This document shows, piece after piece, positions 25,808-51,356 of a stretch of DNA of 64,000 bases. A program made the position numbers and the translations under genes. Each line of letters begins with the position of its first letter. Position 1 is the first letter of the stretch. Origin of the DNA: Malus domestica (lineage: Eukaryota > Streptophyta > Magnoliopsida > Rosales > Rosaceae); assembly GCF_042453785.1 (NCBI RefSeq), contig NC_091675.1, forward strand, positions 47,502,501 through 47,566,500, in the 5' to 3' direction. A model generated the notes under the pieces. The model made no database searches. It was given only the letters and a program-made list of their open reading frames with translations, and was not told the DNA's origin.

Positions 25808-26870
25808 GACCATTGAAACACGATCAGTAAAAAAGAAAGCAGTAATGGGTAAGTCAACAACTAATCTTCCACTAACAATCCAAAACCCAGGACATGATGG
25901 TTTGCCACAGGCACAAAATCCTTCCGCTGTTGTGACACTTGAAGCCATAAGTGCAACACGCTGAGAAAAAGAAGTTAATCTCGGCGGTCAGACCCGTGAT
26001 GTAGAAATCCCTACCAAAATGATAAAAGGCATTTTTGTCGAAGGATTAGTGGAGGATTGTGACGAGGACGGTGATGAGGCCTCCGATCCACAATCTAGAT
26101 CTTTTCTCCAGCGACGATTTGAAGAACAATCCTGGTAATTTGAGCAAATTTTCAGCCGAGAAGTAAATAGCATACTTGAAGAAATGTGTGATAATAACGT
26201 TGTGCATAATAGATTGCTCGAAGTTCTAGTTAGTAAAGTCCATGACATTGGACCCACTGATCGATCCAGGCAGCCTCTTCTAAAGAATAACCCCCTGCCA
26301 GCGATAACAGGCTGAGACAGGATTTGCTCGGCTCAAAATGATTGCCTTAGAGAAAAATGGTGAATCAAGTAGCATATCGAACAAATTTGACCAATTAGTA
26401 GAAACAACATATGTTGACATGGTCGAAGCCCAGATGATGATTGATTCGACCTTAAAAAAGGGGCCGAAGTTTCCAAAGTTCATTCACCTATACCTAGCCT
26501 TTATAGAAATGTTTGAGTATCCTAAGGTGTTCAAGATTCCAGACTTCAACCTTTTCACTGGAGAATTATCCTTATCCTTATTAGAACACGTGACTCGATT
26601 CACTGCTCAATGTGGAGATGTCAACAATGACTTTAATAAACTACGACTATTCAATTTCTCGTTGACCGACTCAACATTCGCATGGTACATGAACCTCCCA
26701 CCTAACTCTATCCAAAGCTGGGAGGAATTAGTCGAGAAATTTCATGAGCAATTTTATCGGCCAGGGATGGAAATGTCAGTCTCTTATTTGGCTAAGATAA
26801 TTCAATCATCCGACGAGTCACCAACGGACTATCTTACGAGATTTAAGTCGGCACGAAACTAGTGCCGAGT
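25808..26870 (+). pseudogene. gag remnant of the Tat element
   Basis: An ATG at 25808 opens a frame with early stops. A retrotransposon gag (capsid) domain is clear in the 174-codon frame at 26338-26862, with the WYMNLPPNSIQSWEEL block typical of plant gypsy gag. Further gag/linker sequence continues in fragments to about 28860, broken by stops. Confidence 0.75.
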
Positions 26871-29705: not shown

Positions 29706-30615
29706 TTGCCCCAACCTATGAAACCCGAGCTTTCTAAATTACTCAAAGAATTTGAAGATTGTTTTGCTTGGATTTACCATGAGATACCTGGCTTAGACCG
29801 AATGCTCGTTGAGCACGAATTACGCATCAAGGTTGGTTGTAAACCTTTCCGCCAACCCCCCCGACGATTCTTGACCAAAGTTCAACTCAGCATAAAAGAT
29901 GAACTCGTTCGACAACTTTTAAAAGTCAGTTTTATTCGTACAGATTGATATGTCGAATGGTTGGCGAATATTGTCCTAGTTTTAAAGAAAAGTGGTGCTC
30001 TACGGATGTGCGTTGATTTTTGGAATTTGAACTTGGCAATCCCTAAAGACGAATATACAATGCCAATTTCAGACTTGTTAATCGACGCTGCAGCAAACCA
30101 TGAGATGTTATCTTTCATGGATGGCTATGCTGGTTACAACCAGATTTTCATTGCTGATGTTGATGTCTATAAAACTACATTTCGTTGCCCCGGGGCACTC
30201 GGGACCTACGAATGGGTCGTCCTGTCTTTTGGACTTAAGAACGTTGGTGCCACATATATGAATACTATTTTTCATGACCTGATTGGCACAATCATTGAAG
30301 TATATATCGATGATGTTGTGGTCAAATCGAAACACCGCCGAACATATTTAGATGATATTCAGCAAGCTTTCCTTCGAATGCGCCAACATAACCTTAAAAT
30401 GAACCCTGCCAAATACGTCTTTGGCGTGTCGGCAGGTAACTTCTTGGGTTTCTTGTACATCATCATGGCATCGAGGTGGATGAGAATAAAGCTCGCGTAA
30501 CCATTGATGCTCCAGCCCCGATAACTAATAAGCAATTACAATCCTTACTCGGCAAAATCAATTTCCTCTGCCGTTTCATTTCTAATTCGGCGGTAAAAAT
30601 GAAGGCCTTCTCCAC
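29706..30615 (+). pseudogene. Reverse transcriptase remnant (first part) of the Tat element
   Basis: Shows the RT blocks in order: LRMCVDFWNLN, FMDGYAGYNQI, the polymerase block with YIDDVVVKS at about 30300-30330, and the following FLGF block. A stop at 29946-29948 interrupts it. The frame breaks exactly at 30615, where the nested element inserted; the rest resumes at 42723. Confidence 0.85.
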
Positions 30616-30974
30616 TGTTTATACCATATTTAGGGCCTCGTATTTAGACCTTGTATAAATACTCGGGGGATTTAAATGTAATTATATAATAAAGAAAGGG
30701 GCAAATATGTAATAAGTGAGGAGTCCTTATTCTATAAAAGGACCCTTCACCCTCACAATTAGGGGAGGCCATTTCTAAGGCCAATTCCTAGGCTCTCTCA
30801 CCCTGAGAAGCTCTCACACTCTCTCCCTTATAAATACTCTCAGATAAATACAATCAGTGTGGACGTAGCTCAAACCTTGGGGTGAACCACGATACATCTT
30901 GTGTTATTTACATTTCTTGTAGATTCACGGTCGGATTTACGTTGTTCCAAGACCTCTGGTTTTGTGCATCAACA
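30616..30974 (+). mobile_element. 5' LTR of the nested element
   Basis: Begins TGTTTATACC and ends GTGCATCAACA. TATAAAA at 30733 is the likely promoter. By eye it differs from the right LTR at about 20 of 359 positions, mostly transitions. Confidence 0.93.
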
Positions 30975-31080
30975 TTTGGCACCGTCTGTGGGAACGACAC
31001 TTATTCCTACTCTCTTCAGCTTTGCTAAGCTGGTTTCCACCATTCGTACACTCTCTTTTAACCAGGCATCCCTCTCCAAC

Positions 31081-32484
31081 ATGGGGAGCGAAGGAAGCCA
31101 CATCACACAGAATGACACCCCTCTTGCACCTAGTGTGAAGCAACGAAAGAAGGAAGGAAAAAGGGTTGCTCTTCAAGCTAAAGTCGATAAGCTAGAAGCT
31201 AAGAACAACAAGATAGCAATAAAGAATGAGGTCCTCCAGGAGCAGTATGAGAAGCTCTTTGAGACGCTCCACGAAACTAGGCGTACTCAAACACGCGAGC
31301 TCGTTGCCCCTGTGGACATCAACCATCATCTGGGTACCCCTCAACACGGAGGGTCACCTCCTTTTGACATGGGTATCCCTGATGAAGAGCGAGCTAATCA
31401 TTAAAACATTAATCAACATGAGACTTCTCTCAATCAACAGGAGAAGTGGAGGAAGACACCATCTTGCAGAAGGGTTAGAAGGATCAAAAGCCGTTTATCA
31501 TGACTACCGAGACTTCCTAAAGCAACGTCGAGAGAATCCCCTCCATATATGCTCGAAGATCAATGACCCAAGGGGCGATAGAGACTTACGAAAGAAAATT
31601 CCAGTGGTACATGGCTCCACTCAAGACCCCCTTGTCCTATAGCTTTTTGAAGAAGTAAACAAGTTGAAGGCCGAACGTCAGGCCGAGATACCTGACTGGA
31701 ACCAACCCAGGCCTGGCCTTTTCACAAGGAGGATCCTCGACACCCCCTTCAAGCGAAGACAAAACAAAAGCTTGGTTTACAACTATATATTGGAAGGGAG
31801 GACCCAATCAAACACCTTAACCTCTTTGAGTCCACCATGGCATATCGGATGCACACCGACGAAGAGCGATGTCTTCTCTTCCCCTCCACCCTCTCTGGCG
31901 GAGCTCTGAACTGGTATTGCCGTCTTCCACCTGAGACAGTAGACTCATTTGAGGAACTGATGAAACTGTTTGTTTTTCAACACATCTTCCAAACCGATCG
32001 CTTGCATTCTATAGATGACTTGTACACTATTCGCCAAAAGCCGGATGAGTCACTACGAGAGTATGTCGGTCGCTTCAGCCATGAGTATTCTCGCTAAGCT
32101 AAGGCAGGTGACAAGATCGCCTTCAAGGCCTTCACGGCAGGCCTACGTGATTGTTTCTTCAAGTACATGATCAATGCCAACATTTGGAAGACTTACTCTG
32201 AGGTGATGGCACATGCTTACAATCATGCCTCCGCCGAAGCAAGGACATACCAAGGGAACCCCCATATGGTTAAACCCTATCAACAAGTGGGAAGTGGAAG
32301 TCAAGTTCTACCAAGTGAGGAGATCTTGGCCATTCACACACCCATTGCATCATCTTCTGCCTCATTTAGCTACTCGCTAAGTCACCAAACGTATCTGTCT
32401 CTTGGTAAGAGGAAAGATTTTTACTCTCAGCAAGCCCATTACAACAAGAGGGATAAAAGTTCGTATCAAGACAATCAGGGGTGA
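31081..32484 (+). pseudogene. gag remnant of the nested element
   Basis: An ATG at 31081 (MGSEGSHITQND) opens a 108-codon frame with a Lys/Glu-rich coiled-coil stretch. Frames at 31837-32097 and 32098-32484 carry the capsid core with FPSTLSGGALNWYCRLPPE and a typical following helix block. Stops and shifts separate the pieces (for example after 31401 and 32094). No zinc knuckle or protease follows. Confidence 0.75.
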
Positions 32485-33049
32485 ACATACCATCGACTAT
32501 TATGACTATGGGGCCAAGCCTCACTCTTTCAAAGTGGAGGACTAGGTACTGAAGGAAATGCTATTATAAGAAGGCATTACACATTACAAATATTTTGACT
32601 CTCAACCGCTTGAGATCTTTTGTCACACAAGCCATTCGGTAAATATTTAAAGAAGAGAGAATTTAGACAACTTCTTCTGAGTTTTTTGCGTTCCTAGCAC
32701 TGGAACACTTGGTCTACGTTGACATACCCTTATTCTCCAACTCAGAGCTTCAACATGCGTACTTTGACACAAAGTATGTGATACTAAGTGTTACAACCAA
32801 CATGGCTCACATATCAAAAGCATGGATCCCTTCATGCATAACAAAACATTCATAAGCATCACTCATATCAATCAACATAAACATTATACATTCCAACACA
32901 TTCATACATAAACATCATACATTCCAACACATTCATACATAAACATCATACATTTCAACACATCCATACATAAGCCAACTGTGCTTCGAAAGGGTTCAAC
33001 ATACTTTGTGTCTTCGACACTTGCTACAATGTGGCTCGACACCTTGCCC
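32485..33049. other. Non-coding interior of the nested element
   Basis: No protein signal. Near 32870-32970 a unit of about 33 bases reading CATACATTCCAACACATTCA is repeated about three times. Confidence 0.5.
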
Positions 33050-33450
33050 TTATTCTCACCAACCAGGTGATGAAATGTGAAGAAGGAACTCATCTTTATG
33101 CCACCAACCGGATGATGAAATGTACAACCCGTACTCTCCTTCATGCCACCAACCAGGTGATGAAATGTACAACCAGTACTCTAATATCATTTGGTAACTT
33201 GCCACCCATGCCACCAACTAGGTGATGAAATGTACAACCCGTACTCTCCTTCATGCCACCAACCAGGTGATGAAATGTACAACCCGTAATCTAATATCAT
33301 TTGGCAACTTGCCATTCATGCCACCAACCAGGTGAAGAAGGAACTCATCTTCGTGCCACCAACCAGGCAATGAAATGTGATGAAAGGTGATGAAGAAACT
33401 CACCTTCGTGCCACCAACCAGGCGATGAAAGCAACTCACCATTCATTCCA
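33050..33450. repeat. Tandem array built on CCACCAACCAGGTGATGAAA
   Basis: The core recurs about eight times with 45-60 base spacing and alternates with two spacer types (GTACAACCCGTACTCT and GAAGGAACTCATCTT). Related units reappear at about 41160-41260 in the same element. Confidence 0.8.
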
Positions 33451-33699
33451 CCTACCAGAAGACGAGTGGTACAACTTGTACATGTGAACTCCTAGCATTC
33501 ACAAATAATCAAAAACCCTTAAGCTTGACAACTCATCTAGGGGAACACTTATGCCCAACAAGAGTTACAGTCACCAACAAAGTCTTATTGCAAGCCAACA
33601 ACAACTTCAGTGCATGGCATACAAAGATCAAGCTATTCAGTCCTCTTGCATCTGCTTCAGACATTTCCCCTCTGTAACAATGCAAACACTACAACTCGT

Positions 33700-34370
33700 A
33701 GAAAGCTTCACACTCTTGATCAAGACAGTGAAGCAAAACCAATTTATGGTGCCAACAAGAGCTTCATCAAAGGAGTTTAATCACAATTCTCAAAAGCTTT
33801 ACACATTCTTGATCAAGACAGTGTGAAGCAAAACCAATTTATAGTGCCAATAAGAGCTTCATCAATGGAGGGCAACCACAATTCTCAAAAGCTTCACACA
33901 CTCTTGATCAAGACAGTGTGAAGCAAAACCAATTTATGGTGCCAATAAGAGCTTCATCAATGAAGGACAACCATAATTCTCAAAAGCTTCACACTCTTGA
34001 TCAAGACAGTGTGAAGCAAAACCAATTTATGGTTCCAACAAGACCTTCATCAAAGGAGTTCAACCACAATTCTCAAAAGCTTCGCACACTCTTGATCAAG
34101 ACAGTGTGAAGCAAAATCAATTTATGGTGCCAACAAGAGCTTCATCAATGGAGGGCAACCACAATTCTCAAAAGCTTCACACACTCTTGATCAAGACAGT
34201 ATGAAGCAAAACCAATTTATGGTGCCAACAAAAGCTTTATCAATGGAGGATTCTCAAAAGCTTCACACACACTTGATCAAGACAGTGTGAAGCAAAACCA
34301 ATTTATGGTGCCAACAAAAGCTTCATCAATGGAGGGCAACTACAATTCTCAAACCTTCGAAGCAAATTCA
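33700..34370. repeat. Tandem array of about seven 95-base units
   Basis: TTGATCAAGACAGTGTGAAG recurs near 33718, 33809, 33904, 33997, 34092, 34187 and 34273, about 95 bases apart. Each is followed by GCAAAACCAATTTATGGTGC. Open frames here are products of the repeat. Confidence 0.88.
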
Positions 34371-34589
34371 AGACTGTTCGAAGCAAATTCAATTTATATC
34401 GTTCATCCAAACCTTCGACTACTACAAGGTGTGGCTTGCATCACAATCTCTTGGTCAACAGTGTGGAAGCAAAATTTGTATATGTTGTCTCTCCCACATT
34501 TTCAAATTTCTAGTTTCCAAAAAAAAAAAAAAGAAGGGAAATTCAACAAAGCTTCATCAATGGAGGACAACTACAAATTCTGAAAAGCT

Positions 34590-35250
34590 AGTGTGAAGCA
34601 AAATCAATTCATGGTACCCAACAAAAGCTTCACCAACAAAAGCTTCAACTCCAAAGCTTCACCAACAAAAGCTTCATCAATGGAGGACAACTACAAATTC
34701 TCAAAAGTTTCACACTATCTTGATCAAGATAGTGTGAAGCAAAATCAATTCATGGTACCCAACAAAAGCTTCAATTCCAAAGCTTCACCTACAAAGCTTC
34801 AACTCCAAAACTTCACCTACAAAAGCTCACCCATAAAAGCTTCACCAACAAAAGCTTTAACTCCAAAGCTTCACCAACAAAAGCTTCATCAATGGAGGAC
34901 AACTACAAATTCTTAAAAACTTCACACTATCTTGATCAAGATAGTGTGAAGCAAATCAATTTATGGTACCCAACAAAAGCTTTAACTCCAAAGCTTCACC
35001 TACAAAGCTTCAACTCCAAAGCTTCACCTACAAAAGCTTCAACACAAAAGCTTTAACAAAAAAACTTCAACTCCAAAGCTTGACCCACAAAAGCTTCACC
35101 TACAAAGCTTCAACACCAAAGTTTCACCTACAAAAGCTTCACATTATCTTGATCAAGATAGTGTGAAGCAAAATCAATTCATGGTGCCCAACAAAGCTTC
35201 AACCTCAAAGCTTCACCTACAAAGCTTCAACACCAAAGCTTCACCTACAA
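34590..35250. repeat. Short-unit array of AAAGCTTCACC type
   Basis: Many 14-28 base units such as AAAGCTTCACCTACAAAGC, each with a HindIII site (AAGCTT). Diverged 95-base units (TTGATCAAGATAGTGTG) are interspersed, so it seems derived from the array to its left. A related AAAAGCTTCATTTACA array lies at about 41450-41660. Confidence 0.85.
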
Positions 35251-35823
35251 AGCTTTAAAATATATATATATATATATATTTTTTTTTTTCGGAAATTCAA
35301 AAATTCAAAAATTCAGAAATTTGAAAATTCAAAAATTCGGAAATTCAAAAATTAGAAAATTCGAAAAAAAAAAAAATTGCCTAGGCCTCCTCTTCTTTGG
35401 GTCTAACAACTTTCATAACAAATATATATGAAGAAGGAGTTTTGGGCTACCACTTAGAAAGGAAATGCCTCATTCGTCAACTCCCTCGACCGGAGATTTG
35501 GGGGACTCCTACCATATGATACTACACCTTGATACTCGGAAGTCTCACGACCACTCAGTGACTTGGATTTTTCAAGTCTCCAAACGAGAAGTTTTCCTCA
35601 CTTGGAAAATTAAGGGAGCACTACCTCAACCTACATGCTTCACTCACAAAGCTTCAACATACAAGCTTCAACAAAAGGAAAAATTCAAAGAACTTAGTGA
35701 AGAAGGCCTTGGTGTATTTAACACAATACGTTGAAATAAAGCAAAGTTTGTTTATTGATATCTCCGATAAGTTACAAATATGTACATATACATGAATCAA
35801 AATAAACAAACAAGAGGGAGCCT
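35251..35823. other. AT run and polypurine-like segment of the nested element
   Basis: A TA run at about 35260-35280 is followed by AAATTCAAAAATTCG-type repeats. At 35580-35625 the sequence CTTGGAAAATTAAGGGAGCAC closely resembles the segment directly left of the LTR at 38884. An LTR-adjacent region was therefore duplicated here without its LTR. No gene is supported. Confidence 0.5.
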
Positions 35824-36498
35824 TCACAAAGGTTGCTCATGAGAAGTCTCAGCAGTCGGCAGAGCCCCATAAAGAGTAGGCATCGAAGGGTGATCATTCG
35901 AAGCCTCAGTACTGGGCAGAACCCCAGAAGGAGGAGGCACCAAATGTTGATCATTTGGAGCTTCATTACGCGGTACAGCCCCAGAAGACGAAGGCAATAA
36001 ATGGCTTTGGAATAAACCCACAAACCTCTGATGATCAAGTAAAATCTGACCATCAGATTCCTGCAGCTGGTCAAGCTTCCTATTCATGTTTGTAGCATAG
36101 TCATGTGCGAGCTTGTGCAACTGTTTATTCTCATGCTTGAGCCCTCTGATATCCTGTTTGAGACTTATCACTTCAGCCGCCAATGATTCAACTTGGCGGG
36201 TTCGAGCAAATAGGCGTTTGGCCATATTAGACATAGAACCTGCACACTGAACACTGAGAGCCAGAGAATCCTTAACAGCCAACTTATCAGACCGTTTGGA
36301 AAGTAGTCTGTTATCTTTAGGAGTGAGAAGGTTCCTGGCCACCATCGCAGCAGTCATATCATTCTTCATTACAGAGTCCCCAACGATAACAGGACCAGTA
36401 GGGGATAAGAAGGATGAGTGCCATATGTTGTCTTAAGAAGGCATGGTTGTCTCTTCACCAAAGTTCAAGTCAAAACGACGGTCGGATGGGCCAGACAT
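35824..36498 (-). CDS. Antisense coiled-coil ORF of the nested retroelement
   Basis: On the strand opposite to gag, an ATG at 36498 starts MSGPSDRRFDLNFGEE. The frame then runs 224 codons to the stop at 35824, with a single in-frame stop (36433-36435). From the Met at 36369, 181 codons are uninterrupted. Its middle (about residues 70-140) is a heptad-rich coiled coil (VESLAAEVISLKQDIRGLKH). The C-terminus holds Pro/Ser-rich repeats of an SSSGAVP type. I recall similar antisense ORFs in plant Tat-type elements; their function is not established. It may be translated only from an antisense transcript. Confidence 0.65.
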
Positions 36499-36929
36499 TT
36501 TCAGAAATGATGAAGGAGAAATGAGGTGCAATAAATCTCTGAAGTAAGGGGAAAATTCCTACAAGCAATAACTCTCTGAATGTACTTTTTGCACACAATT
36601 GTTGCCCTTATAAAAGAAAGGGCAACAGGGCCGTTGGTTCAAAAATCGAAGAGGCACCACTATCCGGATTCCGAAGAGGCACCACTTTCCACATGCAACA
36701 TCAGCTCATCGGGTACCATAGATAACTTTGCCAAAGATATCTGACAAAGTTTAGACACATAAATTTTGAAGGTCCAGCTACCCTACTATTACCCACAAGG
36801 GTAAAGGAACATCACCACTGCTTGATAACTAAAAAGTCCTAATGTGTGTCAACCTCCATGCTCCGTGGCAAGGTAGACTGGCAAAAATGCATAACCTTTA
36901 CTCACATTCGAGAAAACACTCCCAACAAG
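36499..36929. other. Possible antisense promoter region and first array unit
   Basis: On the minus strand, CTTTTATAAGGGC at about 36597-36609 sits roughly 100 bases before the antisense start codon and could be its TATA box. One diverged 63-base array unit (AAAAATCGAAGAGGCACCAC) lies at about 36642. No other signal. Confidence 0.4.
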
Positions 36930-37560
36930 ATTGCTTGCTCAAAAATCGAAGAGGCACCACCCTCCGAATTTCGAGAGCCAAACTCCCAATAGGATTACTT
37001 TCTCAAAAATCGAAGAGACATTGCTCTCCGAATTTCAAGAGTCAGACTCCAAACATGATTGCTTTCTCAAAAATCGAAGAGGCATCGCCTTCCGAATCTC
37101 GAGAGCCAGACTCCCAACAAGATTACTTTCTAAAAAATCGAAGAGACACTGCTCTCCGAATCTCAAGAGTCAGACTCCCAACAAGATTGCTTTCTCAAAA
37201 ATCGAAGAGGCACCCCTCTCCGAATCTTGAGAGCCAGACTCCCAACAGGATTACTTTCTCAAAAATCGAAGAGGCATCGCTCTCCGAATCTCGAGAGGCA
37301 GACTCCCAACAAGATTACGTGCTCAAAAATCGAAGAGGCACCGCCCTCCGAATCTCGAGAGTTAGACTCCCAACAAGATTACTTTCTCAAAAATTGAAGA
37401 GGCACTGGTCTCCGAATCTCAAGAGTCAGACTCCCAACAAGATTGCTTTCTAAAAAATCGAAGAGGCATCGTTCTCTGAATCTCGAGAGCCAGATCCTCG
37501 ACATAATTGCTTGTTCAAAAATCGAAGAGGCACCGCTCTCCGAACTTCAAGAGCAAGATT
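36930..37560. repeat. Tandem array of about ten 63-base units
   Basis: CTCAAAAATCGAAGAGGCAC recurs about every 63 bases from 36938 to 37515, followed by CTCCGAATCTCGAGAGCCAG and ACTCCCAACAAGATT. Because 63 is a multiple of three, all frames stay open for long stretches (up to 203 codons). These are not genes. Confidence 0.9.
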
Positions 37561-38883
37561 TCCTTGGATAAAGCTTGCCTGCAATCTTCACATGCAACAT
37601 CAGCTTTCTAGATACCACAGACCATTTTTTCAAAGTTCTCTGACAAAGTTAAAACATGTGAAGCTTGTAGCTCCTACTACATTACTATGACCAAGAAGGG
37701 TAAAGGAATAACACTACTACTTGTTGTTAGGAAGGCTCCTATATATGTCAACCTCCATCCTTCACAGTCAGGCAGACCTGCAAATATAAAAAAAATGCTT
37801 AACTTTTGTTCACATCCGAGAGGGCACTCTCAGCAGAGTCTCTCGAAATACTCATCTTCTTTTCCTCCCGATAATACCTCTGCAAATAAGCCACACCAGA
37901 GCAAGAGTATCTCATATCATCAGGGTTAAAAGCAAAAGGATCCCATATCATGCTTTTTCCCTGTATTTTCCTTTGGCATTGTTCTTACCTGCAAGACAAG
38001 AAGAAAGAGAGTAATCAGTCATCACTTGGAATCAAGTTTCCAGTCAGGAACTGACTGCTTAGAACCCCTTGCCTGATTACTTACCTGACATTGCTCTCGA
38101 GTACTCATCTTCAACATCTTATCCTTCCAAAAAAGATACTACATCTGCCTAAGGAACAGATAGGGCAAGTGAGAAGGATACAAGGAAGCATGTGGAGACA
38201 AGCGTAATAGAACACGTGCCGATACATCCACTACTTTGTCAACAGCAAAAGTATCCCATATCATCAGGGTCGAACGTACCCTAGATTTGATGGACTTGTT
38301 TTGACCATCAAATTCTTGAGTCAGCCTTATACTCTGGAGGAAACCAGAAAACCCTCCAGCCCAGTTCAAGAATAAGCCTATGGAAAGTTACTTATTCAAA
38401 AGAAAAAGTATCTCATATCATCTATTCTCCATTTGCTTCTCCTTATCCTTGTTGCTGTTTATGACACAAGGAGAATGAGAACAATCAACCGGCAGCCGAA
38501 GTCAAACCTCCGATCCAGGTTGCTTGCTTAGAAGTCTGATTGCTTACCTTGTCTGTTACCTCTTTCGATAAATCTCCTAGCTCGACGACTTGGGGGACTC
38601 CTACTATAGGGTTTTGTATCGCACTTGACCAAGCCCGAAACTCCAAGTAAGCTTCAAGTGAAATTGAAACATTACCTTGTGCATCTTTATCGGTTAAAAA
38701 TACCACCCCTGGATGGAGGAAAAGTACTTCTAGAGAAGATGCCACATCTACGTATGAGACAGATAAGGCAAGTGAAAATGATACCACACTTCGGTACTTA
38801 GAAGTTTCGTGATTACTCAATAGCTTGGATCTTGCAAGTCTCCAACTAAGGAGCTTCTCTCACTTGGGAACTTAGGGGAGCAC
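37561..38883. other. Non-coding interior of the nested element, ending in a polypurine tract
   Basis: No protein signal. The phrase AAGTATCTCATATCATC recurs near 37900, 38250 and 38405. The right end, ACTTAGGGGAGCAC (38870-38883), directly abuts an LTR and looks like a polypurine tract. Confidence 0.5.
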
Positions 38884-39398
38884 TGTTTGTACCATACTTG
38901 ACCAATCCCGAAACTACTGAGCACTGGTCAACGTTATACTGTCAAGGACCCAGAAGAGTTTCCCTCTAACCAGGAGGCCAATCACAGCGCGACACGTGTC
39001 GACATCAGAAGCCAATCATAGCGTGACACGTGTCAACATCAAAAGCCAATCACAACACGACACGTGTCAATGTCAGAATGAAACTAGAAACTCTCTTCTA
39101 TAAATAGAGATCATTCTCTTACAATATTTCTGAATGTCATTTGTACTAAATCATTCACTTGTACTCACTAAAGGAGAGCTTGAACCTATGTACTTGTGTA
39201 AACCCTTCACAATTAATAAGAACTCCTCTACTCCGTGGACGTAGCCAATCTGGGTGAACCACGTACATCTTGTGTTTGCTTCCCTGTCTCCATCCATTTA
39301 TATACTTATCCACACTAGTGACTGAAGCAATGTAGCGAAGGTCACAAACTTGACATTTTCTGTTGTACCAAAGTCCTCACTGATTTTGTGCATCAACA
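38884..39398 (+). mobile_element. Additional LTR inside the nested element
   Basis: Begins TGTTTGTACC and ends GTGCATCAACA; same family as the solo LTR at 50831-51356. It has a polypurine-like tract on its left and a leader TTTGACGCCGTCTGTGGG on its right, so it is placed like both a 3' and a 5' LTR. Three perfect GACACGTGTC palindromes lie at 38991, 39025 and 39059, ahead of CTATAAATAGAG at about 39101. No target duplication flanks it. It may come from recombination between related elements. Confidence 0.8.
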
Positions 39399-39692
39399 TT
39401 TGACGCCGTCTGTGGGAATCGACAAGAAAAACTATGTCGGTTCTCTTTCATTTTTTTCACCTCCGCCGTGAATCTGCAAACCAAAGCTTTCCCAGATCCC
39501 ACACGAGAGAAAGATATGATCACTTGCAACAACACCAAATCCCAGATCCCACACAACCCTCTAAAGTTGCTCTGCTCGTTATTAGATTTGATTTGTCGAT
39601 CGAAAACAATAAGCAACAAGGGAATAATGATGGGAAATTTGTACCCAACGAACAGGACGTTCTGCAGATACTTGTAGCATTCCTTGACAGGA

Positions 39693-39811
39693 ACCACGTT
39701 GGTGTTTACTCTCGCGGCAAAGAAAAAAAGGTTTGATGTGGTGGTGTTTGAGAAGGATTTGAGCGCTGTGAGAGGAAAGAGGCGGTATAGAGGTCCTATT
39801 CACTACAGATC
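39693..39811 (+). pseudogene. Captured fragment of zeaxanthin epoxidase
   Basis: About 40 codons read as the N-terminal FAD-binding region of plant zeaxanthin epoxidase (xanthophyll cycle, plastid): FTLAAKKKRFDVVVFEKD followed by YRGPI. It joins directly to the next fragment with no intron-like sequence. It cannot encode the enzyme. Confidence 0.75.
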
Positions 39812-39910
39812 TGGCTCTCCACCGTCATCCTCGCCAACCCCAACCACCGCATCGTCGGCCTTGACATCGAGTGGCGCCCTAACTTCAGCCGCAACTTTAA
39901 CAACCCGTAA
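39812..39910 (+). pseudogene. Captured fragment of a WRN-like 3'-5' exonuclease
   Basis: 32 codons ending in a stop match the start of the plant WRN-type exonuclease domain, including IVGLDIEWRPNFSRN, where D and E are catalytic. Joined without a gap to the zeaxanthin epoxidase fragment before it. Confidence 0.7.
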
Positions 39911-39971
39911 CTTTGGGATTGGGCATCAACGACACTGATTATACAATGAGGATTTACAATTCTGATGGGAG

Positions 39972-40585
39972 TGAGTCCAAGTACCTCCAGAATGACCCAC
40001 CTGACATCATCCCTCAAGAGGACCGAGCCGTCAAGCACGTGCTCGATTCCCTGCTGCCCTTTAGCACCACCATAGGAGGTGGTCCCGTGGTGATCAACCA
40101 CGAGCCTATTTCCCCAGCAGAGGCAACGTCATTGTGGAGTACCTAGAAACTGTTCCAGGGAAGATCTTGTCCTTTGTTGGCTGTCACATGGACGCTTGTC
40201 ACTGCTAATCCCAAAAGACTGGGAATTTGATCCATTCTCATTGAGCATCGAATGAGATATACTTCGTGGCTGTGGAACCACTGATTGCTTGGGTCATGTT
40301 ACACTTCTAACTAAGCTCATGAGAAGGCTGGCTGAGACAAAGCCAAAATAAAAATCAACTGTGGTCGCAATCTTTATAGCAAATGAAGAGAATTCTTCCA
40401 TTTCAGGAGTTGGTATGGATGCGCTCATGAACGATGGGCTAGTCAGTAAGCTAAGGGATGGTCCTTTGTTTTGGATTGACATGGCAGATAAACAGCCTTG
40501 CATCGGTACTGGTGGAATGATACCTTGGAAGCTTCATGCAACTAGGAAGCTTTTTCATAGTGGTTTAGCACACAAGTTGCTGAAC
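39972..40585 (+). pseudogene. Captured, rearranged fragment of acetylornithine deacetylase
   Basis: Blocks of the plant M20 peptidase-family arginine/ornithine pathway enzyme appear in order, in different frames: ESKYLQNDPPDI and IIPQEDRAVKHVLDSLLPFS, then VPGKILSFVGCHMD (with the metal-binding His and Asp), then ANEENSSISGVG and KQPCIGTGGMIPWKLHA. Frameshifts and stops separate the blocks. I saw no introns, so a cDNA-like origin is likely. Confidence 0.8.
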
Positions 40586-40710
40586 AACAATGGCCTCTGT
40601 GACCATACCGCCGGTGCTTACATCCCCTATAGACGGGATCAGATCAAGGTCAAATCGGATCCAGGGTCTCGGGTTGCGACGTTTTGCTTTGCTGTGATTC
40701 TGTGAAGTTG

Positions 40711-40815
40711 CGAGAAATCAACACAGAAGGCACTGTTTTGCAGGGTTCTGGATGGGTAGGGCTTGCTTTAGACAAAAAGTTGAAGGAACTCGTGGTTGAA
40801 ATCACTGCAAATTAG
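40711..40815 (+). pseudogene. Captured fragment of Mn-superoxide dismutase
   Basis: 34 codons plus a stop match plant mitochondrial Mn-SOD around [20 protein letters not shown]. The usual Trp after GWV is Gly here. The sequence between this and the deacetylase fragment (40586-40710) is open but not recognised. A short run of ten adenines lies further on at about 41071-41080. Confidence 0.75.
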
Positions 40816-41080
40816 ATAAGGGGAAGCGCATGTTACTACCATGCTCATTTTCTGAGAAAGCCACGACAAAAGCAAAAGATAAAGTTACTGTTTGCCAGGA
40901 AAATAAAGAGAAAAGGAAAAGATGAGCTCTCAAGTAGGCGCAGTGAGCACCAACAACACGCAACTGTCAACCACTCCCCTAACGACTGCTTTATTTATTT
41001 ATTTATTTTAATGATGTGATTTACTTTTCTTATCTATTGGAGACATCTGTATAAACCCCATCAGAGGTTAAAAAAAAAAA

Positions 41081-41784
41081 GGCAAGCCCAAAATAATAGG
41101 CCGCAATGTCATGTGGAGGGCGAAGGCCCATATGCCCAAAAGAGCCAGACCCTCTATTATCACCAACCAGGTGACCAAAAGTGCGCCCAGTACTCCAAAA
41201 ATTATTCGGTAACCTGCTGGTATTACCACTAACCAGGTGATCAAAAGTACGCCAAGTACTTCAAATCATACATGAGCATTACTCATGTCAATTATACATA
41301 AACATTCATGAGCATGACTCATCCAATCATACATAAACATTCATGAGCATCACTCATGTCAACATTCATGAGCATCACTCATGTCAACATCCATGAGCAT
41401 CACTTATGTCAATCAACATAAACATTCATGAGTATCACTCATGTCAATCAGCTTCAAAAGCTTCATTTACAAAAGCTCTAGCTTTACAAGCTTCATTTAC
41501 AGAGCCTTAGCTTTAAAAGCTTCATTTACAAAAGTTCTAACTTTAAAAGCTTCATTTACAAAAGCTCTAGCTTCAAAAGCTTCATTTACAGAGCCTTAGC
41601 TTCAAAAGCTTCATTTACAGAGCTCTAGCTTCAAAACTTCACTTGCAAAAGCTTCACCTACAAAGCTTCAGTGCAAGGTATACAAATACCGCATCTGAAC
41701 AACCACCATTTCGGCCCATACATGGATTCAATTTGAAGTCTCTGGCCAACGGACTCTATTGACCGAAGACTTGGGGGACTACAC
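41081..41784. repeat. Mixed short repeats of the nested element
   Basis: Resumes the CACCAACCAGGTGA repeat (about 41160-41260). Then come CATGAGCATCACTCATGTCA units (about 41270-41450) and AAAAGCTTCATTTACAGAG units (about 41450-41660). No coding signal. Confidence 0.75.
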
Positions 41785-42150
41785 TATACACGATATATTG
41801 GGCCTCAACTGGGCCTTATGAAAAATACTCGGGGGACTTAGCCCATCACTTATGTATTGAGGAGCGAGCCTTTATTCTATAAAAAGGACTCCCTCACCAT
41901 CATTAGAGAGCATCAACTCTAGCCCGTTATCCATGTATTGAGGAGTGAGCCCTTATTCTATAAAAGGGACTCCCTCACGATCATTAGAGAGCATCAACTC
42001 TAGCCCGTCGTTTATGTATTGATGAGCGATCCCTTATTCTATAAAAGGGACTCTCTCACCATCATTAGAGAGCATCAATTCCAGCCCATCATCCATGTAT
42101 TGAGGAGTGAGCCCTTATTCTATAAAAGGGACTCCCTCACCTTTAAACGC
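41785..42150 (+). mobile_element. Degenerate LTR with four tandem TATA-bearing 81-base units
   Basis: Preceded by GACTTGGGGGACTACAC, like the tract before the right LTR, and opening with a diverged copy of the LTR's first 60 bases. Four 81-base units then start at 41854, 41935, 42016 and 42097, each with TTATTCTATAAAA and GGACTCCCTCACC. The corresponding segment occurs once in each normal LTR. Confidence 0.7.
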
Positions 42151-42358
42151 CACAAGCCGAGCCAACCAAGGCAACATAAGCCACGAGCGGAGCAGCCTCG
42201 CAGCGTGTGCTACTTCTAGTTGAGCATCATTTCAGATTGAGCACCGCCTCATATCGAGCATCAGTTCAAGACAACATCTAGTTACTTCGGCCCACACATG
42301 GACTGAATTTCAAGTCTTCAGCCAAAAGACTTTCTTAACTGAAGACTTGAGGGACTAC

Positions 42359-42717
42359 TGTTTATACCATATTTAGGGCCTTGTATTTAGACCTCGTATA
42401 AATACTCGGGGGGACTTAAATGAATTATATAATAAAGAAAGGGGCAAATATGTAATAAGTGAGGAGTCCTTATTCTATAAAAAGACCCCTCACCCTCACA
42501 ATTAGGGGAGGCCATTTCTAAGGCCAATTCCTAGGCTTTCTCACCCTGAGAAGCTCTCACACTTTCTCCATCAGAAATACTCTTAGATAAATACAATCAG
42601 CGTGGACGTAGCCCAAACCTTGGGATGAACCACGATACATCTTGTGTTATTTACATTTCTTGCAGATTCATGGTTGGATTTACCTTGTTCCAAGACCTCC
42701 GGTTTTGTGCATCAACA
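42359..42717 (+). mobile_element. 3' LTR of the nested element
   Basis: Begins TGTTTATACC and ends GTGCATCAACA, followed by TCCAC, the second copy of the target duplication. Same length as the left LTR. Confidence 0.93.
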
Positions 42718-42722
42718 TCCAC

Positions 42723-50830: not shown

Positions 50831-51356
50831 TGTTTGTACCATACTTGTCCAATCCCGAAATTATCAAGCATTGGTCAACTTCATACCTTCAAGGGCCCAC
50901 TAAGGGGTTCATGGTGGGCACCCCTGCCGAAGCACAAGAGTTTCCCTTCACACAGTAGGCCAATCACAGCACGACATATGTTAACGTCAAAATAATGCTC
51001 ATAAAGTCCCACATCGACTGCAAATAAAAGCTGGAGACTCTCCTCAACTATAAAAGAAGACCGTTCTCCTACAATTAATCCCTAATGTCATTATTGTACT
51101 TAAACTCATCATTAGAACCCACTAATGATGACTATGCTTGAACCTATGTATTGTGTAAATCCTTCACTATTAATGAGAACTCCTCTACCCCGTGGACGTA
51201 GCCAAACTTAGGATGAACCACATACATCTTGTGTTTGCTTCCCTATCTCTATCTCTTTACATATTACCCTCACTAGGTGACCGGAGCAACCGAGTGAAGG
51301 TTACAAACTTGACATTTTACGTTGTTCCAAAATCTTATTGATTTTGTGCATCAACA
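50831..51356 (+). mobile_element. Solo LTR, same family as the LTR at 38884
   Basis: Begins TGTTTGTACC and ends GTGCATCAACA, flanked by the duplication AATTG (50826-50830 and 51357-51361). TATAAAAG lies at about 51050. It has only one, degenerate form (ACGACATATGTT) of the G-box unit that is triplicated in the 38884 LTR. Confidence 0.93.

Follow-up and report, generated by a model that had tools for sequence, protein, structure and literature searches.

A chain of host-gene fragments in the apple genome as probable template-switch cargo of a non-autonomous LTR retrotransposon family

How did pieces of several unrelated host genes come to lie in a row, within 1.1 kb, behind a retrotransposon LTR? 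The question is raised by a patch (39693–40815) in a 64,000-nt stretch of the Malus domestica genome (C15:47502501–47566500), hereafter the window. A first-pass annotation had named four fragments in the patch, from zeaxanthin epoxidase (ZEP), a WRN-like exonuclease, acetylornithine deacetylase and Mn-superoxide dismutase (SOD), and had placed them all on the plus strand, free of introns, behind an LTR and leader.

Donors, introns and joins of the chain

A search of the patch against the whole genome (651 Mb, 19 contigs) returned 45 matches, and at least seven host-gene pieces can be recognized in 39698–40815, each with a parent in the same genome (Table 1). Numbered with 39693 as base 1, the match blocks are 6–117 (C2, 90%), 119–215 (C11, 96%), 229–289 (C7, 93%), 281–546, 530–777 and 776–884 (the C6 tandem genes and C16, M20 peptidase), 883–943 (C8, 97%), 945–1026 (C13, 94%) and 1017–1123 (several element copies). 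All four fragments named at first are real and have parents in the genome, but the count was too low: the epimerase, annexin and muniscin-like pieces had been missed.

Table 1. Features of the fragment chain and of the element that carries it (positions in the window)
Feature	Position	Strand	Remarks
LTR A, outer 5′ LTR of complex element	30616..30974	+	Preceded by target duplication TCCAC (30611–30615)
LTR C, directly 5′ of gene-fragment unit	38884..39398	+	Other LTR type than 3′ LTR B
PBS-like start and conserved family leader	39399..39480	+	In 27 loci besides the window and the C2 copy
Leader extension, possibly more captured sequence	39481..39697	+	Donor not found
ZEP fragment (name assumed)	39698..39809	+	Coding, early part of protein; 90% to C2:14601503–14601615
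WRN-like 3′–5′ exonuclease fragment	39811..39907	+	96% to C11:37444663–37444759; parent Pfam DNA_pol_A_exo1
Diaminopimelate epimerase fragment	39908..39975	+	39921–39981 93% to C7:8548064–8548124; parent Pfam DAP_epimerase
M20 peptidase/acetylornithine deacetylase-like cDNA, three exons	39973..40576	+	C6:4076670–4086528 and C16:35617580–35619692, exon by exon
Annexin 5′UTR, start codon and first codons	40577..40635	+	97% to C8:23210893–23210953; parent Pfam Annexin domains
5′ leader region of muniscin-like (muHD) gene	40637..40712	− (antisense to gene)	94% to C13:27563445–27563526; parent Pfam muHD
Mn-SOD cDNA, two exons	40713..40815	+	Gene L059 at C7:30912059; PDB 4c7u, E 3.4e-7
Family 3′ non-coding tail, tandem repeats, purine-rich end	40994..42358	+	Common to C2 copy and other members
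LTR B, 3′ LTR	42359..42717	+	Followed by target duplication TCCAC (42718–42722)

We take the first piece to come from a zeaxanthin epoxidase gene; its parent matches only NAD/FAD-binding families in Pfam and nothing in a PDB sequence search. Acetylornithine deacetylase is likewise our presumptive name for the M20 peptidase parent, a gene with the Pfam Peptidase M20 family, to whose copies on C6 and C16 the exons in the window match at 87–97%; a PDB sequence search with the window peptidase segment gave no match. The start of the epimerase piece (39908) was set by comparison with both the gene and the other copy of the chain, on C2, which also retains bases that an internal deletion has removed from this piece in the window. 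The SOD region matches at 85–90% elsewhere in the genome, and the C7 gene was seen by two shorter matches. No Pfam family was found at E ≤ 0.01 in the ten stop-free segments of the window unit (39404–41016), probably because the pieces are too short.

Two of the seven donors are informative on introns; the other pieces sit in a single exon or a 5′ leader. The M20 peptidase piece consists of three exons fused at the GT...AG sites of the parent, with two introns precisely gone, the first of ∼0.65 to 3.8 kb in three gene copies and the second of ∼75–85 bases. The SOD piece consists of two exons fused where the C7 gene has an intron. With all three crossed introns precisely absent, the intron-crossing pieces must derive from spliced RNA. 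The claim that the patch lacks introns is thus borne out at every intron crossed, and the observations named beforehand as speaking against the proposed template-switch capture were not encountered: the peptidase and SOD parents do have introns, and parents exist for each of the four fragments.

Bases common to both donors occur at three of the six joins, namely GAG at the epimerase/peptidase join (3 nt; 5/6 bases over GAGYCC), AG at the peptidase/annexin join (2 nt) and AGAT at the muniscin leader/SOD join (4 nt). The ZEP–exonuclease, exonuclease–epimerase and annexin–muniscin joins each hold one base found in neither parent. Trans-splicing was considered for the peptidase/annexin join, where peptidase exon 3 stops at its donor site and TAG precedes the annexin segment in the gene. 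It was rejected because the annexin cargo of another family member (L022) retains upstream annexin sequence, with the TAG altered, which argues that the TAG of the gene is probably no acceptor; the two common bases account for this join.

Six pieces are in sense and one is antisense, a ratio that is not significant alone (p 0.125). The assignment of the whole patch to the plus strand therefore stands for six of the seven pieces and fails for the muniscin-like piece, which is antisense to its gene and comes from just upstream of the muHD start codon. A divergent transcript could have been its source.

The carrier element and its second copy

The LTR and leader reported in front of the fragments are both present (38884–39480). 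By reading, a PBS-like sequence (TTTGRCGCCGTCTGTGGGAA) lies after the LTR and a purine-rich one (GACTTGRGGGACTAC) before the 3′ LTR. The window unit itself is bounded by unlike LTRs, C and B. Farther upstream lies LTR A, and 30614–30975 is 94.2% identical to 42357–42718, the region of LTR B. Given this likeness of A and B and the presence of TCCAC on both flanks, we read 30611–42722 as a complex element with the layout LTR A – unit 1 – LTR C – unit 2 – LTR B, in which two units share LTR C and a single TCCAC duplication encloses the whole. The basis for this reading of the sequence is the likeness of the LTRs together with a duplication of 5 bases. The complex element seems, from continuity judged by eye, to have inserted into an element with a gag ORF (26338–26859) and an RT ORF (29961–30497). 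The ORF behind LTR A was considered as a further gag and rejected, since it has no Pfam match. No gag–pol, as carried by autonomous LTR retrotransposons, was found in the ten stop-free segments of the window unit, and no autonomous partner was found.

A second full copy of the chain, with LTR, leader, chain, tail and LTR, lies on C2 (C2:19289302–19293128, joined stretch). This 3827-bp copy has LTRs that are 91.9% alike and is flanked by the target duplication TACCT. In the region of the leader extension it has ∼112 nt of extra sequence with a short ATG reading stretch.

Three other features of the window may be recorded here. A solo LTR of type C lies at 50831–51356 with AATTG on both sides. 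A 181-aa ORF without a Pfam match (35827–36369, minus strand) runs antisense to the retroelement, and the DNA around it (∼35502–36215) recurs in family members L053 and L047 and partly in L018. At 36790–37665 a 64-base unit is repeated in tandem about ten times.

A large family with changing cargo

When up to three mismatches are allowed, a pattern of 35 leader bases matches the genome 261 times, and its reversed control 0 times. From a query with the leader, 40 of 2142 initial candidates were scored. Cargo was compared in 27 copies (L032–L058), each with 1.5 kb following the leader; these are the copies whose leaders match that of the window most closely, and hence a non-random sample. In 23 of the 27, the leader is immediately preceded by a correctly oriented B-type LTR of ∼300 nt or more, the exceptions being L038 (C type, second half), L047 and L048 (partial LTRs) and L056 (inverted LTR). 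Three full-length members measure 3786, 3827 and 3911 bp. Besides the C2 copy, L052, L027 and L054 are full-length members. The same 5 bases flank L052 (AGGTG) and L027 (GAACT) on both sides, and L054 has AGACT/AGATT (4/5 bases); a pair of LTRs with a 5-bp target duplication is thus present in L052 and L027 as well as in the C2 copy.

The tail was reached in 15 of 34 copies, and in these the cargo is enclosed by the same leader and tail. The distance from leader to tail in these copies is 1235–2568 nt, and the idea of a constant cargo length as a packaging limit was accordingly rejected. Over bases 83–1150, the first 1.1 kb of cargo, the 27 sampled copies hold 25 different cargos: only L040/L057 (97.6%) and L055/L058 (89%) are alike along their length, and what other pairs share is no longer than 91 bases and falls within ∼200 bases of the leader start, apart from one 61-base stretch in L042/L044. 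When all available cargo is compared, L033 and L053 also share a 363-nt piece at 92%, either a common module or a second capture of one donor; shorter shared stretches are mostly at or near the tail. The 363-nt piece overlaps the RRM match in L053.

Captured host genes in this sample lie predominantly in sense. At E ≤ 1e-3 in Pfam we counted 15 host genes in 214 sense ORFs and 1 in 188 antisense ORFs (two-sided sign test, p = 0.0005; p = 0.0018 once PUNUT in L039 and Ank in L052, which fall short of Pfam's own cut-off, are removed). The sense matches are AAA_34 (which we take to be strawberry-notch-like), OPT transporter, DUF1604, DUF4408, cytochrome b5, CASP, PUNUT, zinc alcohol dehydrogenase, homeodomain/HALZ, ribosomal L12, Fes1, DUF538, DUF1635, RRM and ankyrin. 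Nine of the 15 were traced to copies (L033, L035, L037, L039, L044, L046, L052, L053 and L054), and six (OPT, DUF1604, Homeodomain/HALZ, Fes1, DUF538 and DUF1635) come from pooled tables only. ADH_N and ADH_zinc_N, both in L046, were counted once, as were Homeodomain and HALZ. The count omits RVT_3 in L033, which was not taken for a host gene, and families with E between 0.001 and 0.01; the ORFs of L057 (9 sense, 8 antisense) were excluded because L057 repeats L040. The only antisense host gene at this threshold is an ELP1 beta-propeller piece (L035:586–1107, E 7.4e-20). In L033, a single ORF (2312–2782) runs through an RVT_3 (RNase H-like) piece and then a cytochrome b5 piece.

Several donors of the window chain recur in other members, and judged by sequence comparison three of the seven (ZEP, peptidase and annexin) seem to have been caught there independently. 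The ZEP piece in L016 adjoins a thioredoxin-like piece, follows the C15 gene L015 (the other homoeolog) and is without the changes common to the window and C2 copies, yet it ends at the same base as the window piece (39809, TACAGA), possibly a hotspot for jumps. In L027 the peptidase piece resembles gene copy L012 (97.4%) more than the window (93.8%), with which it has one derived site in common, and the annexin piece in L022 is longer and closer to the gene. The SOD cargo, common to at least L025, L026 and L028, may have been inherited.

The peptidase donor itself can be narrowed down. A one-base deletion in exon 1 is present in the window, in the C2 copy and in L012, and absent from L011 and L013. 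This points to L012, whose own exon 1 is frame-shifted, as donor, though a single base is thin evidence; the captured RNA may have come from a transcribed pseudogene. L011 and L012 are tandem M20 peptidase genes at C6:4.07–4.09 Mb, and exon 1 of L012 holds a stop in addition to the one-base deletion.

These comparisons bear on the most serious alternative to repeated capture, in which the chain was built by exchange of ready-made cargo between members, through recombination or template switching among co-packaged element RNAs. Exchanges of some kind are suggested by the mismatched type of the 5′ LTR in the window. The spread of SOD cargo, the presence of ZEP, peptidase and annexin each in single other members, and the 363-nt piece that L033 and L053 share far from the leader amid otherwise different cargo would all fit such a process. 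A swap of ready-made pieces is unsupported, however, for ZEP, peptidase and annexin, which look like independent captures, and we regard assembly by exchange as possible but doubtful.

Origin of the chain

Capture by template switching is favored because three introns were precisely lost, six of seven pieces are in sense, the joins show either bases common to both donors (three of six) or one unmatched base (three of six), and the second copy is bounded by LTRs and a target duplication. We conclude that the patch is very probably the variable cargo of a non-autonomous LTR retrotransposon, filled by reverse transcriptase switching templates among co-packaged host mRNAs. This upholds the earlier proposal of RNA-mediated capture by repeated template switching, and extends it to at least seven donors and a large gene-capturing family. 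In the scheme we envisage, the element RNA would be packaged together with spliced host mRNAs, an autonomous partner supplying the enzymes. Reverse transcriptase would jump from RNA to RNA, with few matching bases at half of the joins, and return to the element RNA. The outcome would be a row of short fragments without introns, most of them in sense, enclosed by a fixed leader and tail. The chimera would then integrate and be recopied as an ordinary element. Simple mRNA capture does not readily explain the antisense muniscin-like piece in the window, the antisense ELP1 piece in L035 or the half of joins that have no common bases; to account for the antisense pieces, something more would be needed, for example an antisense transcript or a switch of the enzyme to the second DNA strand.

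This scheme has precedents. LTR-mediated retroposition, as set out in passages of PMC5408686, involves an mRNA in the particle, jumps at microsimilarity and short pieces, with several jumps theoretically possible; our scheme repeats these steps, and those passages contain no large plant family with cargo turnover. Transduced sequences are usually in sense, according to a passage of PMC7264820. The maize Bs1 LTR retroelement holds pieces of three unrelated host genes (PMC13317346, in part), exons only (PMC4717578, in part), and the patch resembles it in carrying several unrelated host-gene pieces, exons only, in an LTR element, here from seven donors with 3/3 introns gone. Unlike in Bs1, at least seven donors are packed into 1.1 kb and 25 cargos are found in 27 sampled copies; Bs1 is moreover described in this literature as giving a transcribed and translated chimeric gene.

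Passages of PMC4717578 report 30 gene-carrying TRIMs in seven subfamilies (one in Medicago, six in soybean), with intron-free pieces, 5-bp target duplications and mostly two or more copies; GmaRetroS15 holds pieces of three genes, and two TRIMs have exons of more than two genes. The apple family is similar in being made up of non-autonomous LTR elements with intron-free pieces and 5-bp target duplications, but the gene-carrying TRIMs in those passages measure 1,172–1,449 bp whereas the apple members, with their long tandem-repeat tail, measure 3,786–3,911 bp and exceed the size of TRIMs. Passages of PMC3726574 count 672 genes inside LTR elements in rice and 1343 in sorghum, annotated genes within full-length elements, as distinct from the short chained cDNA pieces described here. 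Complex LTR insertions in which two elements share an LTR are described for Triticeae in passages of Sabot and Schulman (PMC1950507), where abnormal template switching or recombination is offered as explanation; the A – C – B arrangement in the window, as read here, is of this kind, except that its second unit is gene-capturing.

Multi-gene capture by LTR elements is therefore a known kind of event, so far from few elements, and what is notable here is its scale and the turnover of cargo within one family. Among the titles and abstract openings of the open-licence papers surveyed, none describes this element family or any other large family of plant LTR elements whose cargo turns over. On balance, we favor the view that one large non-autonomous LTR family has acted as a serial cDNA trap, in which leader and tail are constant, the middle differs in nearly each lineage, spliced transcripts are chained, and the same donors (ZEP, M20 peptidase and annexin) are caught repeatedly. 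If so, the family is a record of the mRNAs that enter retroelement particles and of the sites at which reverse transcriptase jumps, and its hundreds of insertions with many cargos could provide statistics on mRNA packaging, on the choice of template-switch sites and on the frequency of chimeric transcripts in plants. It is also a warning for annotation, because what looks like a short stretch of a genuine gene may, at many sites in this genome, be retroelement cargo.

A transcribed chain might in addition be a source of small RNAs directed at the donor genes. The chain does combine, behind an LTR, sense pieces of several genes with one antisense piece, and unique small RNAs are reported at 85 (rice) and 812 (sorghum) LTR-captured genes in passages of Jiang and Ramachandran 2013 (PMC3726574). 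The pieces are only ∼85–97% like their donors, however, and we consider such regulation improbable.

Still less probable is an assembly of the chain at the DNA level, in the manner of a Pack-MULE or Helitron, with later placement in an LTR element. Capture by DNA elements typically yields numerous short fragments from numerous genes, and the two antisense pieces (muniscin-like and ELP1) would fit this. It is opposed by the precise removal of three introns, by the sense bias in the family sample and by the constant retroelement leader and tail that enclose the cargo in all copies where the tail was reached. Pack-MULEs carry exons and introns between terminal inverted repeats, whereas the patch lacks all three introns that its pieces cross. 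Helitrons have TC...CTRR ends with a hairpin and insert in AT without duplication, whereas this family is bounded by LTRs and 5-bp duplications.

That selection maintains the chain as a functional chimeric gene is scarcely credible and largely contradicted: the family leader does carry a start codon and a short open stretch, but the patch has stop codons in all three forward frames, in line with the initial judgement that it is not a protein-coding fusion, and in the peptidase part the window and C2 copies share two insertions and one deletion, each of 1 nt, so that the reading frame was lost before these copies separated and the chain was copied as a non-ORF.
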